From positions 1 to 64,000 of the forward strand of contig DATATI010000046.1 in the NCBI GenBank assembly GCA_036268875.1: DNA of 64,000 nucleotides, written 5' to 3'. This DNA is from Polyangia bacterium (GTDB taxonomy: Bacteria > Myxococcota_A > Polyangia > Fen-1088). Below the pieces are notes generated by a model. It ran no database searches. It was given only the letters and a program-made list of their open reading frames with translations, and was not told the origin of the DNA. Both the position numbers and the translations under genes were made by a program. Within the stretch, counting starts at the first letter, position 1. Every line of letters starts with the position of its first letter. Below are positions 4,393 to 51,953 of the stretch, piece by piece.

Positions 4393-5526
4393 CTAACGCG
4401 GTGGCGATTCTTCCAACCAGCGCTGCGCTTCGCCACGCGCGAACCCGGAGGGGAATCGGCGCAGATAATCGGCGGCCGCCCGCGCGCCGGCGGTGGCGTC
4501 GATTGACGACAGGACTTTCATTCGTTGCGCCGCCGCGCTCTCTGCCAGCGGACTGGCCGGATATTCGTCAATCAGGCGTTCGAACAAAGTCGCCGCTTCG
4601 CGGCCCAGGCCATGATTGCGGGCGCGAACCGCGGCGGCGAACAAGTTGTTTTGATCGGCCAGCAGCGACGCCGAGGAAACTGCGGCGGTTGACGTCCGGC
4701 GCGGCCCGGCCGTCGGGCGCACGGGCGTGCGAGTTTGCGTTGACGCGGGCGCCGGCACCGGCGTCGGAACGCCTTCGCATACCGATACCCAGGCGCCGCC
4801 CGAGGCCAGGCGCACTTCGTCGCCGCGCGAGCGCACCGTCACCACGCCTTCGGTGACGGAGACGCGGGTCCGGCCCGGATCGGCACACGTCGCATCGGGC
4901 GGCATCACCGCCACGCGGAAGGTGGTGCCGTGCACTTCGATCTCGGCGTCGCCCGTGTCGATAACGAACCGCTCGCCCGACGCCAGCGGAGCCACGTGCA
5001 CCCGCACGGCGCCGGTGTGCAAAGCGAATCGCTGGGTGGCGCTGGCTTCGGTCACCGTCAACGACGCCGCCTTCTCCATGGTCATCACCGTCCCCGCCGC
5101 CGAGCCCAGCTGGACCTCGGCCTCACCGGGTGATGTCAGCCGGATCCCCGCCGGCAACGTCATGCCGCGCTTGAGACGCATGGGCGGCGACCCCGCCAGA
5201 AAAGCGTCCGCGCCGCTTCCCTCCCGGTTCACCTCATCCAATACGGTCAGGTCGCGATCGTTGATCGGACTCGACGCGGGCGAAGTCCGCGGCGGCGCCG
5301 CCTGGCGCAGCGCCAGACCGCCGACCAGCAAGACCACCGCCGCGGCCGCAAAACCGGTGGCCCGTCGTCGCGCGGTTCGGCGCCGCGCGCGGGCGCCGAG
5401 CGCGTGCGCAACAGCGTCGGTCAAGCGCCCGCGATCCGCCGGCTCGCTGGGCGGTGACTCCTGGCGCATTCGCCTGAGCAGGCGCGCCGCCGCCTGCGCG
5501 TGACGGGTGGGATCATCGCGCGTCAT
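4393..5526 (-). CDS. FecR-domain membrane protein with C-terminal TPR-like region
   Basis: This 377-residue protein is probably an anti-sigma or sigma-linked envelope protein. It has a short cytoplasmic N-terminal helix region, one membrane segment (about residues 58-75, GFAAAAVVLLVGGLAL), and a periplasmic FecR domain (about 115-250) with MRLKRGMTLPAGIRLTSPGEAEVQLGS and IEVHGTTFRVAV. A Pro/Thr-rich linker follows, and then a helical-repeat end resembling TPRs (AATLFERLIDEYPASPLAESAA). Its ATG overlaps the stop of the upstream sigma-factor gene by four bases (ATGA), so the two are translationally coupled. No TonB-dependent receptor is adjacent, so iron transport is not implied. Confidence 0.85.
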   Translation of the reverse strand: MTRDDPTRHAQAAARLLRRMRQESPPSEPADRGRLTDAVAHALGARARRRTARRRATGFAAAAVVLLVGGLALRQAAPPRTSPASSPINDRDLTVLDEVNREGSGADAFLAGSPPMRLKRGMTLPAGIRLTSPGEAEVQLGSAAGTVMTMEKAASLTVTEASATQRFALHTGAVRVHVAPLASGERFVIDTGDAEIEVHGTTFRVAVMPPDATCADPGRTRVSVTEGVVTVRSRGDEVRLASGGAWVSVCEGVPTPVPAPASTQTRTPVRPTAGPRRTSTAAVSSASLLADQNNLFAAAVRARNHGLGREAATLFERLIDEYPASPLAESAAAQRMKVLSSIDATAGARAAADYLRRFPSGFARGEAQRWLEESPPR

Positions 5527-47081: not shown

Positions 47082-49655
47082 ATGCTACCGCTGCTCTTCA
47101 TGCTTCGGGTTCGCCGCCGGCCCGTCGGAATCGCCGCTGGTCTCGTCCTGGGCGTTGTTCTCAGCGGCGCGGCGGCGCGCGCCCAGACGGACGGCGGCGC
47201 ACCGTTGGCGGCGGCACCGCCGGCCGAGACGCTGACCGCACCGACGCTGACCGCTCACCCGGAGGCGCCCTATCCCGCCGACGCGCTGGCAACAAAAGTC
47301 GAAGGCAACGTCGGCCTGGAGTTGGATCTCGACGCCGCCGGCCATGTCACGGGCGTTCGGGTGACGGCGCCGGCCGGCCACGGCTTCGACGAAGCGGCGG
47401 TGGAAGCCGCGCGACACTTCATCTTCCAGCCGGCCATGCGGCAAGGCGTCCCGGTGGCTTCGACAGTGCGGTTCACCTACGAATTCCATCTGCCGCGTCC
47501 CTCGCCCACGCCGCCGCCACCGGCCGCGCCTCCGCCGGCACCGGCGCCCGGCGAAGGAGCTCACGGCGGCCCTACCCAATCGACGCAGGTGCTGGCCTCA
47601 AAGCCGATCAGCGCTGCCTCTTCGTTCTCGGTGCAGGATCGCGATTTTCAACTGCGGCCCATCGCCAGCGTGCAGGACATCCTGCGCGTGACACCCGGGC
47701 TGGTGATGGTCCAGCACTCGGGCGGCGGCAAGGCGAACCAGTATTTTCTGCGCGGCTTCGACGCCGACCACGGCACCGACCTGGCACTGTCGATCGACGG
47801 CGTGCCGATCAACCTGGTGTCGCACGCGCACGGCCAGGGATTCGCCGACACCAACTTCATCATTCCCGAGGTGGTGGAACGCGTGGAGATCACCAAGGGC
47901 CCTTACTTCGCCAACCAGGGTGACTTTGCCACCGCCGGCGCGGTCAATATGGTTTCGCGCGACGCCTTCGAACACAGCGCAGCGGCCCTGGGTCTGGTGG
48001 ATTCGCCCGGCCATGGTTCGGCCGGGTATCGTGGCTTGCTCATCGCCAGCCCCCGATTCGACGACCTCCCCCTGCAGGCCACTTTCGCCGCAGAGATCGG
48101 CCGGTCGAACGGCCCCTTCGACAACCCGGAAGGCTGGGACAAGTACAAGCTATTCAACAAGCTGACGGTCCACCCGACGCCGGTCTCCAGCGTTTCGCTG
48201 ACCGAGGTGAGTTACGCCAGCAACTGGCACGGCTCGGGCCAGATCCCGGCGCGCGCCGTCAACCAGGGGCTCATCACCCGCTTTGGCTCGCTGGATCCCG
48301 ACGAAGGCGGCAACACCGCCCGCCATCAGCTGGCCTTGAGTTACCGCCTGCGGCCCTCCGACACCAGCGACCTGCGGGTGATGGCCTATGTCGGCACGTA
48401 TCGATTCAATCTGTTCTCGAATTTCACGCTCTATCTCCGCGATCCGATCGACGGCGACGAGATCGAACAGATCGATCGCCGCACGTTCTACGGCGGCAAG
48501 TTGAGTTACCGGATCGTGCACCGCCTGCGCGCCGTCACGTTCGATTCAACCATCGGCGCCGACACCCGCAGCGACGATATCCAAGAAGAACTGTGGGACA
48601 CCGTGCACCGCCAGCAGACCACCGCGGTGCGCAGCAACGACGTCCACGAGACGTTCATCGGCGCCTACCTCAACGAAGAGATCACGCCCTCCCGCTGGCT
48701 GCGTGCCGACGTCGGCGGCCGCGCTGATCTGCTGTCGTTCGCCGTCGACAACCGACTGGCGACAAGCGATCCCACCGCGCCGGCCAGCGGCGTCGACAGC
48801 GCGCACCAGTTCAGCCCGAAGGCGAGCTTGATCGTCACCCCGCTGGATCGCCCCCATGTGCAGCTGGATGTCTACGCCAACTACGGCCACGGTTTTCATT
48901 CCAACGACGTGCGCGGCGTGTTTGCCCAGCCGGCGGTGACTCCCCTGGCGCGCGCCAAAGGCGAAGAGGTCGGCAGCCGCGCCCGGTTTTTTGGCCGTTG
49001 GGATCTGGCGGCCGCCGTTTGGCAGCTGGATCTGGCCAGCGAGACGGTGTGGAACGGCGACGACGGCACCACCGCTGTCAGTGACCCCACCAACCGCAAA
49101 GGGATCGAGATCGAAAGCCGATACGAAGTGACGCCCTGGCTGGCCGCCGATATGGAACTGACCTTCACCCGGTCGCACTTCACCACCGACCGGGAAAACG
49201 GCGGCGGCTTGGCCCTGGCCCCGAAGAAGACCTGGGCCGGCGGGCTGGCCGGACGTCACGCCATCGGGCCCGGCGTGGCCAGGGCGGGCCTGCGTTTCTA
49301 CGGCATCGGCGATCGCCCCGCCACCGACGACGGCGCACTGATCGCGCCGGGTTTCACCCAGTTCGATCTGCACGTTGGCTATCGACACCGCTGGTTTGAT
49401 ATCGCCTTCGACATCGAGAATCTGCTGAACGGCGACTTCCGTTCGGCGCAATTCGCCACTGTCAGCCGGCTGCGCAACGAGCCCGCGGTGGGCGCGCCGG
49501 TGCCGCCGCAATTTTCGTGCGGCAGCAACGCCAGGCCGGCCGCAGCGCCCGGCGGTGGTCCGGCAGGCGGGCGGTTCTTCGGGTGCGAAGACGTCAACTA
49601 CACGCCGGCGTACCCGCTGACGGTGCGGCTGATGGCGACGATCTTTCTCGACTGA
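47082..49655 (+). CDS. TonB-dependent receptor with built-in TonB C-terminal domain
   Basis: This 857-residue outer-membrane receptor has a signal peptide (GIAAGLVLGVVLSGAAARAQ). A TonB_C-like domain follows (about 45-130): AKVEGNVGLELDLDAAGHV-like KVEGNVGLELDLDAAG, then AVEAARHFIFQPAMRQGVPV. A Pro-rich linker leads to the plug (about 165-290, SVQDILRVTPGLVMVQH, FLRGFDADHGTDLALSIDGVPIN, VVERVEITKGPYFANQGDF). The rest is a 22-strand type barrel to the C-terminus. The substrate is unknown. I chose the ATG at 47082; another at 47100 is possible. Such TonB-receptor fusions place an energy-transducer fold in the periplasm next to the plug. Confidence 0.9.
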   Translation: MLPLLFMLRVRRRPVGIAAGLVLGVVLSGAAARAQTDGGAPLAAAPPAETLTAPTLTAHPEAPYPADALATKVEGNVGLELDLDAAGHVTGVRVTAPAGHGFDEAAVEAARHFIFQPAMRQGVPVASTVRFTYEFHLPRPSPTPPPPAAPPPAPAPGEGAHGGPTQSTQVLASKPISAASSFSVQDRDFQLRPIASVQDILRVTPGLVMVQHSGGGKANQYFLRGFDADHGTDLALSIDGVPINLVSHAHGQGFADTNFIIPEVVERVEITKGPYFANQGDFATAGAVNMVSRDAFEHSAAALGLVDSPGHGSAGYRGLLIASPRFDDLPLQATFAAEIGRSNGPFDNPEGWDKYKLFNKLTVHPTPVSSVSLTEVSYASNWHGSGQIPARAVNQGLITRFGSLDPDEGGNTARHQLALSYRLRPSDTSDLRVMAYVGTYRFNLFSNFTLYLRDPIDGDEIEQIDRRTFYGGKLSYRIVHRLRAVTFDSTIGADTRSDDIQEELWDTVHRQQTTAVRSNDVHETFIGAYLNEEITPSRWLRADVGGRADLLSFAVDNRLATSDPTAPASGVDSAHQFSPKASLIVTPLDRPHVQLDVYANYGHGFHSNDVRGVFAQPAVTPLARAKGEEVGSRARFFGRWDLAAAVWQLDLASETVWNGDDGTTAVSDPTNRKGIEIESRYEVTPWLAADMELTFTRSHFTTDRENGGGLALAPKKTWAGGLAGRHAIGPGVARAGLRFYGIGDRPATDDGALIAPGFTQFDLHVGYRHRWFDIAFDIENLLNGDFRSAQFATVSRLRNEPAVGAPVPPQFSCGSNARPAAAPGGGPAGGRFFGCEDVNYTPAYPLTVRLMATIFLD

Positions 49656-49723
49656 CGCGGGCGGGGTGGGCCCACCCGACGGGATTGCCGGCACTGTCGA
49701 AAGTCAGCCGACGATGCGGACTT

Positions 49724-49918
49724 TTATTGACCGGACTTGGCGGAGCCGGGTGTCGGACCGCTGCCGGGCGGACGAGGCTGACCCGGGCGGGCAAATCCCG
49801 GCGAGCTCCAACCGGTTCGCCGCTTGCGAAAGGAACTCTTGGTGGTGGGCGGCGCGGCCTGCTCACGCGCCGCTTGTTGCGCGATGATGGCGGCCCGTTT
49901 GTCTTCGCCTTTACCCAC
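49724..49918 (-). CDS. Possible small basic protein overlapping the 49.9 kb gene
   Basis: A possible 64-residue protein begins with a GTG at 49918 (VGKGEDKRAAIIAQQAAREQAA) and runs into a Pro/Gly/Ser/Arg tail (SPGFARPGQPRPPGSG). Its start overlaps the stop of the gene upstream by eight bases. No family is recognised. The amphipathic helix at the front looks like real protein, while the tail may be composition only. Confidence 0.35.
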   Translation of the reverse strand: MGKGEDKRAAIIAQQAAREQAAPPTTKSSFRKRRTGWSSPGFARPGQPRPPGSGPTPGSAKSGQ

Positions 49919-50186
49919 GATCGATCTCGTGATCTTTGAAGGAGACAACCGGAAGACGCGCCGAGGCCGGCGTCAGCGCGAGAACCTCTAGCCCTTTGAG
50001 GTGCTTCTTCGCTTTCACCGCACGAACCAAAAGCGCCACCAGAACCGGCGAGGCCATCGCTTCGTCGCCGTCGATGTCAGGGAGAGCCGCCACCGCAGCG
50101 TCAAGATCGTTCCGCGCGTCGTCCAGATTCTTGCGCGCAGCGGCGACCTCCGCGGCCCCGCCGCGCTCCCGTCCTTTGGTCTCCAT
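49911..50186 (-). CDS. Small helical hypothetical protein with duplicated leader
   Basis: This 91-residue, charged, mostly helical protein starts METKGRERGGAAEVAAARKNL and contains DDARNDLDAAVAALPDIDGD, then VLVALLVRAVKAKKHLKGL. It ends in VSFKDHEIDRG. A coiled-coil-like first half is likely; no family is recognised. CGGAGG precedes the ATG at 50186. The 48 bases around its start are almost identical, in inverted orientation, to those of the divergent HPF/RaiA-like gene, which suggests shared regulation. Confidence 0.7.
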   Translation of the reverse strand: METKGRERGGAAEVAAARKNLDDARNDLDAAVAALPDIDGDEAMASPVLVALLVRAVKAKKHLKGLEVLALTPASARLPVVSFKDHEIDRG

Positions 50187-50229
50187 GGTGTCCTCCGTTG
50201 GCGGGGTCCACCAGGTCGCTACGCTGGCC
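50182..50229 (-). repeat. Leader repeat, copy 1 (start region of the 91-residue gene)
   Basis: Read on the minus strand, this 48-base stretch is GGCCAGCG, then TAGCGACCTGGTGGACCC, then CGCCAA, then CGGAGGACACCATGGA, with the ATG of the gene. It matches copy 2 (50443-50488) at about 41 positions, including identical 18- and 16-base blocks. It covers the ribosome site and start codon. Confidence 0.85.
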
Positions 50230-50442
50230 GCACATTCAATCGTCACTCCGCGACGGCGATTGTAGCTAATACCTACACGGCAGGTGTTGGTTGCGCAAGG
50301 AAGGTTGGCAGAATCTTGGCTGCTAGCGGCGTCGATCGCCTGCAAAACCCTTACCGCCCACGGAAACGTTCCTTGCCAACGGTGGTCGCGTGGAGTAGCA
50401 ATTCACGGCTGCAGTCCGGTGTGGATTGGCCTGCAGATGATT

Positions 50443-50488
50443 GGCCAGCCTAGCGACCTGGTGGACCCGCCTCGGAGGACACCATGGA
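50443..50488 (+). repeat. Leader repeat, copy 2 (start region of the HPF/RaiA-like gene)
   Basis: On the plus strand this reads GGCCAGCC, TAGCGACCTGGTGGACCC, GCCT, CGGAGGACACCATGGA, ending inside the gene. Together with copy 1 it flanks a 213-base spacer shared by the two divergent genes. The spacer itself shows no other clear repeat or gene. Confidence 0.85.
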
Positions 50489-50870
50489 AAACGTTGTTGG
50501 CTGCCAGATAACTTTTGCTGGCATGGACGGCACAGAGCCGGTCCGGACCGAGATCCACGCCTGGCTCTTGCGTCTCGGCCTGCAAATGGCCCAGGTGAAA
50601 AACGCCCATGTCTTTGTCGAGGGTGTTGACGAAAATCGCAAGCTTCGCGCGCACCGGGTGCGAATGGATCTGTCCATGCTGGACGGCGCGGCGGTGACTG
50701 TGGCGCACGATCATCCGGCCAATGGCTCTCACGAAGACGTCTTTGTGGCCGTTCGCAATGCATTTCGGGCGGCGCGCCGTGAATTGGAAGAGTGGGGAAA
50801 AAAGCGCTCGTCGGTCGAGCCGATCGACACCACCGTCGGCGGCCCGGCCATCGTTCTGACGCCGTCTTAA
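50484..50870 (+). CDS. HPF/RaiA-like ribosome-associated protein
   Basis: This 128-residue protein resembles the S30AE fold of hibernation factors (HPF/RaiA), which bind the 30S decoding centre and silence ribosomes in stress. The pattern includes GTEPVRTEIHAWLLRLGLQMAQ, a beta strand NAHVFVEGV, the turn RKLRAHRVRMDLSML, and a C-terminal helix DVFVAVRNAFRAARRELEEW. The short tail (after about residue 105) lacks the long dimerisation domain. CGGAGG sits inside the duplicated leader. It heads a short operon with a retropepsin-type gene 16 bases downstream. The family call is by pattern only. Confidence 0.75.
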   Translation: MENVVGCQITFAGMDGTEPVRTEIHAWLLRLGLQMAQVKNAHVFVEGVDENRKLRAHRVRMDLSMLDGAAVTVAHDHPANGSHEDVFVAVRNAFRAARRELEEWGKKRSSVEPIDTTVGGPAIVLTPS

Positions 50871-50886
50871 CCGGGTCCCACCAAGG

Positions 50887-51744
50887 ATGCCCATCGTCGA
50901 TGCTCGCTATGACCGAGGGCAGTTCTTCATACCGCTCAGTCTCAACGGCTCGATGCCCCATCATTTCATCCTCGACACCGGGGCCGGAATCAGCGCCATC
51001 GACGCCGCGCTGGCCGTCAACCTGGAGCTTCCCATCATCGGGCGCACAGAGCTGGCTGGTACGGGTGGCGTGTTCGACGTCGACAAGGTCCGCATCGGCC
51101 GCATGCAGCCGCTGCGACGCGGGCGCGGTGTCGATGAACTGGCCTGGTACGGCCTGACGCCGACGGTGCAGGACCTCAGCGCCTTCGTCATTCCGGGCAT
51201 CGACGTGGGCGAAGCGGGACTGCTAGGAAATGACTATCTGCAAAGCTTCATCCTGCAGATGCAGTTCAACCCGCCGCTGCTGGAGATCACCCGTCCCACC
51301 GGTTTTTTTCCGCCGGGCACCGACCCGCAACGATTCATTCCGTTTTCTCTCGACCGAAACACCATCGTTCGCGTCAAGGCGACTCTCGACGGCTGGATGG
51401 AAACGGAGCTTCGGTTCGACACCGGCAGCGCCACCATGACCATCGAAGGACCGTACCTGAACATCACCCGCACCATGTGGCAGGCGCTGTGCGCCCGCCA
51501 TCCCGAATACCGGGTTCATCATCAGCTGGTGGCCAACGGCATCGGTGGCCCGGTCGAGCTGGACGTCGGACGCGTCAGCCGATTTGATCTGGGCCCGCTG
51601 CACTTTGGCGAGACCAGCGTGGTGATCCAGCCGCCCTCAGGAATCTTCGCCAGCCCCGATGCCATCGGTTTCGTCGCGTTGAATCTGTTCGAGGGGGATC
51701 AATGGCTGACTTTCGATTACCCTAACGGACGGCTTTATCTGTGA
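50887..51744 (+). CDS. Tandem retropepsin-like aspartic protease
   Basis: This 285-residue soluble protein carries two retropepsin-like halves. The first catalytic-type motif is ILDTGAGISAIDA with Asp30; the second is RFDTGSATMTIEG with Asp178. Hydrophobic family segments such as GLLGNDYLQSF and FVALNLFEGDQWLTF follow each half. Most bacterial retropepsin-like proteins have one DTG; two in one chain recall pepsin's two-lobed form. There is no signal peptide. It sits between the HPF/RaiA-like gene and a 63-residue gene, with 16- and 17-base gaps. Protease activity is unproven. Confidence 0.8.
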   Translation: MPIVDARYDRGQFFIPLSLNGSMPHHFILDTGAGISAIDAALAVNLELPIIGRTELAGTGGVFDVDKVRIGRMQPLRRGRGVDELAWYGLTPTVQDLSAFVIPGIDVGEAGLLGNDYLQSFILQMQFNPPLLEITRPTGFFPPGTDPQRFIPFSLDRNTIVRVKATLDGWMETELRFDTGSATMTIEGPYLNITRTMWQALCARHPEYRVHHQLVANGIGGPVELDVGRVSRFDLGPLHFGETSVVIQPPSGIFASPDAIGFVALNLFEGDQWLTFDYPNGRLYL

Positions 51745-51761
51745 CACCAGGAGAATGCGGA

Positions 51762-51953
51762 ATGTCTTCCAAGGATCGTGTGACCGTGGCCAGCGAAAAG
51801 GCTGATTTCATCGCCGACCGGATCGGCCTCGGCATCCCCGCGCCCGAGGGCGAAGTGCGCGAGCTGGCCCGGCTCCTGCGCCAGATCGCCGCCGAGATCG
51901 GCGCCGGTCCCAAACGGCCCGGCGTGGTCCGCCCCTTCAGCCTGCGGCGATAG
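51762..51953 (+). CDS. Small hypothetical protein after the retropepsin gene
   Basis: This 63-residue protein starts MSSKDRVTVASEKADFIAD and contains EVRELARLLRQIAAEIGAG. It is helical, with a basic Pro-containing tail (PKRPGVVRPFSLRR). No family is recognised. CCAGGAGAA precedes the ATG at 51762; a GTG seven codons earlier overlaps the protease stop but is less likely. It ends the three-gene run before rpoZ. Confidence 0.55.
   Translation: MSSKDRVTVASEKADFIADRIGLGIPAPEGEVRELARLLRQIAAEIGAGPKRPGVVRPFSLRR

Follow-up and report, generated by a model that had tools for sequence, protein, structure and literature searches.

Why should two divergent genes that encode unrelated proteins begin with almost the same sequence? 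In the window, the 64,000-nucleotide stretch of Polyangia bacterium DNA analysed here, the start region of an HPF/RaiA-like gene (hpf; 50443-50488, plus strand) matches that of a gene for a 91-residue protein (50229-50182, minus strand) in inverted orientation, with 92% identity over 46/48 bp and E = 2.9e-10 in a search of the whole 6.15 Mb genome (G000). The two leaders are 213 bp apart, share an identical 18-base block (TAGCGACCTGGTGGACCC) and have the block GGAGGACACCATGGA at the ribosome site in common. The near-identical inverted pair described in the first-pass annotation was thus borne out, and the likeness proved to be longer than first noted: beyond the 46/48 bp, both leaders also share a promoter (TTGC-N19-TA) and an upstream hairpin, which we call P1. 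As read from the sequence, this is a start-of-gene control module of about 125 bases, in which a promoter is followed by a small RNA hairpin and then by a nearly invariant stretch that reaches the start codon. The features of the locus are the following.

50373-50378, plus strand: predicted -35 element of the hpf promoter, TTGCCA, within TCCTTGCC
50396-50401, plus strand: predicted -10 element of the hpf promoter, TAGCAA
50409-50436, plus strand: P1 hairpin of the hpf leader, CTGCAGTCC / loop GGTGTGGATT / GGCCTGCAG, with 8/9 pairs, at the predicted 5' end of the mRNA
50443-50488, plus strand: conserved core leader of hpf (GGCCAGCCTAGCGACCTGGTGGACCC..GGAGGACACCATGGA), with the ribosome site at 50474-50479 and the start codon at 50484
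50484-50870, plus strand: HPF/RaiA-like gene, 128 aa, S30AE domain (PF02482), with homologues in G001, G003 and G007
50293-50298, minus strand: predicted -35 element of the 91-aa gene, TTGCGC
50270-50275, minus strand: predicted -10 element of the 91-aa gene, TAGGTA
50237-50262, minus strand: P1 hairpin of the 91-aa gene leader, CAATCGCC / loop GTCGCGGAGT / GACGATTG
50182-50229, minus strand: conserved core leader of the 91-aa gene, with the ribosome site at 50196-50191 and the start codon at 50186
49911-50186, minus strand: gene for the 91-aa helical protein, with homologues in genus g6 and G011

The proteins encoded downstream are dissimilar, as the annotation had stated. The HPF-like protein scores marginally above the Pfam cutoff for the S30AE domain (PF02482; 23.8 bits, cutoff 23.7) and, at 128 aa, has no room for a C-terminal dimerisation domain. 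A Pfam scan of the 91-aa protein gave no family above cutoff; its AlphaFold model consists of two long helices (pLDDT 71), for which a fold search of the PDB returned no significant structural match. This supports a shared regulatory leader and not a gene duplication, and the leader links a helical 91-aa protein to the HPF-like gene, as had been proposed. A further small protein (..DRVTVASEKADFIADRI..) is encoded near hpf both in the window (51741-51953, plus strand) and in G007 (L116:8062-8310, minus strand), and its antisense frame is also visible in G001; it is likely a further partner of the hpf locus.

The search of the whole genome and of relatives that the first-pass annotation had called for returned these two copies in G000 and further copies in five relatives from its family; the carriers are uncultured myxobacteria from soil. 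Pattern and profile searches of the 6.15 Mb found no third copy in G000, and the weaker model and profile matches in this genome were read and discarded, as they had no promoter. The leader search set comprised 18 genomes of the family, including that of the window; all genomes compared are draft MAGs, and the 11 leader copies, from six MAGs, are few for testing. Copies were complete in four of the five relatives and truncated in one (G013). Each genome holds about two, each at a gene start. Four genomes have the leader upstream of hpf (G000, G001, G007 and, weakened, G003). It also stands before a glycosyltransferase (GT4)-GH130 operon, in G001 and G007, and before a small membrane protein gene, in G003 and in G011. 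In G011 it also precedes a small zinc-ribbon protein gene directly upstream of GT4-GH130. Two related zinc-ribbon small proteins (..PCPFCGNRVVRGATLCGACWRK..) adjoin leader-bearing genes in this genome (L120:9744-10037 and L121, downstream of 4754); the one that was scanned gave no family above cutoff. The truncated copy in G013 (L122, G013:C279, about 1315-1367) ends at GGACCCC, before the ribosome site, and ORFs that by eye resemble transposases or recombinases lie close by, which suggests that the downstream gene was lost by insertion.

The expectation that relatives with the same genes should carry the same leader held for one of the two genes. All three other family genomes with a closely related hpf (about 50% identical) carry it, weakened in G003, and family members without the leader mostly also have no such hpf gene. 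For the 91-aa gene it failed: five genus g6 genomes have this gene behind a different leader, so that the leader goes with the regulon and not with the 91-aa gene. In these genomes the homologues (L065-L069; L070:1180-1480) lie behind a small membrane ORF and another conserved leader (GGCGCGTCTCCA..CAGGCGCGG), which is again located downstream of a promoter-like site (CCTTGCG); possibly this is a second leader type of the same regulon. Outside the family, no convincing copy emerged when 317 genomes from the class and 377 from the phylum were scanned with a sequence profile (R1). Weak class-wide matches (G110, G045, G061, G188, G254 and G306) had no leader anatomy, and four weak matches that were checked in relatives had no promoter.

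The promoter belongs to the conserved unit. The pattern TTGC-N19-TA is present within 100 bases upstream of the core in all 11 copies, always with a 17-bp spacer, while spacers of 14-16 or 18-19 bp were found in none of the 11. In dinucleotide shuffles the chance of the pattern was 0.3-3.5% per copy, although the copies are related and these chances cannot simply be multiplied. Elsewhere in G000 the strict pattern occurs at chance level (two matches, against three in the control), which indicates that it is not simply a housekeeping promoter; this assignment was rejected, as was a sigma54 promoter, for which the GG-GC spacing is unfit by eye. A specific sigma factor or activator therefore likely reads the leader promoter. 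The distance from the -10 element to the core ranges from 23 to 54 nt, a variation of 31 nt among copies.

Between promoter and core, P1 is found in 9/11 copies, as a stem of 9-10 bp with a loop of 9-12 nt that contains GGA. Loop sequences are conserved (GUCGCGGAGU, CUUGCGGAAU and the like), whereas the arms vary and yet pair: CAATCGCC/GACGATTG and CTGCAGTCC/GGCCTGCAG in the window, and CCGGTGGCCC/GGGCTGCCGG, CCAGCTGCC/GGCGGTTGG, CCGGAGATC/GGTCACCGG and CTGAAGTCC/GGGCTGCAG (CTGAAGCTC/GGGCTGCAG) in other copies, each arm complementary to its own partner, as also in the pair CAATCG/CGATTG. The weakest P1, in the leader of the membrane protein gene of G003, has about 6/9 positions paired. When the 3' arms were swapped between the nine copies, the total stem score fell from 170 to 129 +/- 11 (P = 8e-5; by folding energy P = 0.015), and with near-relatives removed P was 2e-4 for the score and 0.005 for the energy; P1 had been selected after inspecting folds. 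By this permutation the helix is backed by compensatory change between copies, as expected of a structured RNA leader. Taken as a whole, the leader has no unusual folding energy (z near 0 in most copies). A constant loop flanked by variable arms is what would be expected of an RNA hairpin and not of a protein site on DNA. The first paired base of P1 lies 7-8 nt after the -10 hexamer in 8/9 copies and 11 nt after it in the remaining one, which would place P1 at the very 5' end of the mRNA, at the predicted +1; the criteria that located the promoter and those that located the hairpin were separate, and the positions agree. In the hpf leaders of G001 and G007 the promoter has moved in and the predicted transcript starts without P1, suggesting that P1 is not indispensable.

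The core (GGCCAGCNTNGCGACCTGGTGGACCC..GGAGGACACCATGGA) is fixed with respect to the gene: in each of the nine copies measured, its GGCCAGC starts 40-44 nt ahead of the start codon position. Between G000 and G007, which belong to different genera, the hpf core is identical at 36/38 positions (95%), compared to 189/310 (61%) in the hpf coding region and 32/63 in the region upstream of the core. On these comparisons, the hpf core is under strong selection. Also conserved are the second codon and the spacer that separates the ribosome site from the start codon. Two sub-types of the core occur, GACCCGCCT in the hpf leaders of G000 and G007 (CCCGCCT) and GACCCCG in most others (CCCCGCC), and since they are shared across genera, the two window leaders must be old and not recent copies of each other. 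At the position of the hpf ATG, G001 has GAG and G007 has TTG, with the flanking CACC/CGCC and GGA(A/G) kept. In G003 (L119, G003:C352, reverse strand 5160-5300), the hpf frame has no ATG, GTG or TTG before its conserved part, and the leader start site opens an ORF of eight codons (GTG..TGA) that ends beside an ATT lying in frame with hpf; this could reflect coupled translation, a rare start codon or a sequencing error.

Several other structures were considered and set aside. A hairpin CCUGGUG/CACC(AU)GG, which would hide the ribosome site and the start codon, is the lowest-energy fold in 6/7 copies computed, but the leader start regions were no less accessible than those of 71 background genes (0.44 vs 0.39), and it was rejected as the distinctive feature and is not claimed as the switch. 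A pseudoknot between loop and core (GUCGC/GCGAC) had one compensatory case and no excess of covariation over shuffles. The CCAG/CUGG hairpin is invariant save for one G-U to A-U change and is almost uninformative. A conserved upstream peptide in the leader was discarded as well, as neither frames nor amino acids are kept and start codons are not shared.

How could such a unit work? In the mechanism that we propose, a specific sigma70-like promoter (of the CCTTGCGG-N17-TAGGA type) would be followed by an untranslated leader of 80-90 nt. The transcript would open with P1, its 9-10 bp stem carrying the GGA loop, and continue into the near-invariant core that ends at the start codon. Within each genome, hpf and at least one other gene would thereby come under joint control. 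An RNA-binding factor acting in trans, or else a ligand, would recognise the P1 loop and the core, and this recognition would change mRNA stability or translation as the cell enters a resting state. The cassette with its promoter, its conservation, the complementarity of the P1 arms and the fixed distance from core to start codon are shown by comparing sequences, whereas the transcription start, the action on RNA, the direction of control and the resting-state signal are inferred, the last from the HPF-like gene alone. We consider it probable that a cis-acting RNA leader, read through the P1 loop and the core by a factor or ligand, controls the stability or translation of hibernation-related mRNAs.

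The same observations can be read at the DNA level, as a promoter with a downstream operator for a repressor or activator, the likeness up to the start codon being due to shared ancestry. Such a cassette would fit the presence of the promoter in every copy, its rarity elsewhere in the genome, which makes a specific sigma factor or activator likely, and the short inverted repeat CCAG-N9-CTGG in the core. However, the core keeps its distance to the start codon and not to the promoter, the arms of P1 vary while pairing, and the spacer and second codon are also conserved; we therefore regard this account as rather unlikely. Stem-loops of the ompA type, with few or no unpaired 5' bases, are a known stabilising arrangement, and P1 resembles them in its predicted position at the 5' end, preceded by few if any unpaired bases. 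P1 could then merely shield long-lived transcripts from decay, with no dedicated sensor, but this would leave the conserved GGA of the loop and the near-invariant core unexplained and does not fit the two hpf copies whose predicted transcript has no P1, so that it seems improbable.

Control of the CsrA type is more doubtful still, and we give it very little credence. The GGA in the P1 loop, GGUGGACC and the ribosome site GGAGGA would be the CsrA/RsmA binding sites, and these three GGA motifs, one placed in the loop of a hairpin and another over the ribosome site, are arranged as such control would need; E. coli CsrA targets also include hpf, raiA and small membrane proteins (PMC10746276). However, PF02599 was not found in G000, G001, G003, G007, G011 or G013, whereas CsrA was detected in the control genomes that have it. 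Least credible of all is a mobile leader or a substrate for promoter inversion between the two genes, as raised in the first-pass annotation, or else the inverted-repeat end of a small element. Such a reading would account for two inverted leaders 213 bp apart in the window, but this arrangement is not kept in relatives, where copies are convergent and 4.2 kb apart (G001) or on separate contigs (G003, G007 and G011). Moreover, the copies lie always at gene starts, and the sharing of hpf-type and other-type cores across genera shows them to be old. No copy was found in viral contigs and phages, and plasmids gave a single 23-bp match at chance level. The two window leaders thus look like copies of one shared, probably RNA-level, control and not like a mobile or flipping element.

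Taken as a cis-acting RNA leader, the module probably controls a small dormancy-type regulon, most likely at the RNA level. Whether it also amounts to a new class of 5' leader RNA is a more tentative proposal, which we find conceivable: a promoter-coupled 5'-terminal GGA-loop hairpin with an invariant core, read by an RNA-binding protein or a ligand, may switch a hibernation regulon (hpf, the GT4-GH130 glycan operon, and small membrane and helical proteins) in myxobacteria that have no CsrA. If this is true, a small regulon could be recognised by its leader alone, the 91-aa helical, small membrane and zinc-ribbon proteins would be likely dormancy partners of the hibernation factor, and bacteria without CsrA would have a post-transcriptional route to hibernation control.

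Known systems resemble the leader in part. The raiA RNA motif of Rfam, from Bacillota and Actinomycetota, is likewise a conserved RNA that often lies upstream of a hibernation-factor gene, raiA; its distance to the ORF is often hundreds of bases, and a trans-acting role is reported (PMC11477304), whereas the leader described here abuts the start codons. Rfam models, that of raiA included, did not match the window at the gathering threshold, and a scan of 49500-51200 that admitted E values up to 5 was equally empty. In E. coli, CsrA controls the hibernation genes rmf, raiA, hpf, yqjD and elaB through their leaders, so that a hibernation factor and small membrane proteins are co-controlled via GGA-bearing leaders (PMC10746276). 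In contrast, it is here the whole leader that is near-identical between genes, and not the GGA motifs alone, and none of the six genomes has CsrA. Candidate cis-regulatory RNAs from comparative genomics (PMC2864571, PMC8632094) share with our leader a conserved 5' element, a covarying stem and an association with several gene families. Unlike those candidates, the present leader has its own conserved promoter at a fixed distance from the hairpin, and a single myxobacterial family, of those searched, yielded it.
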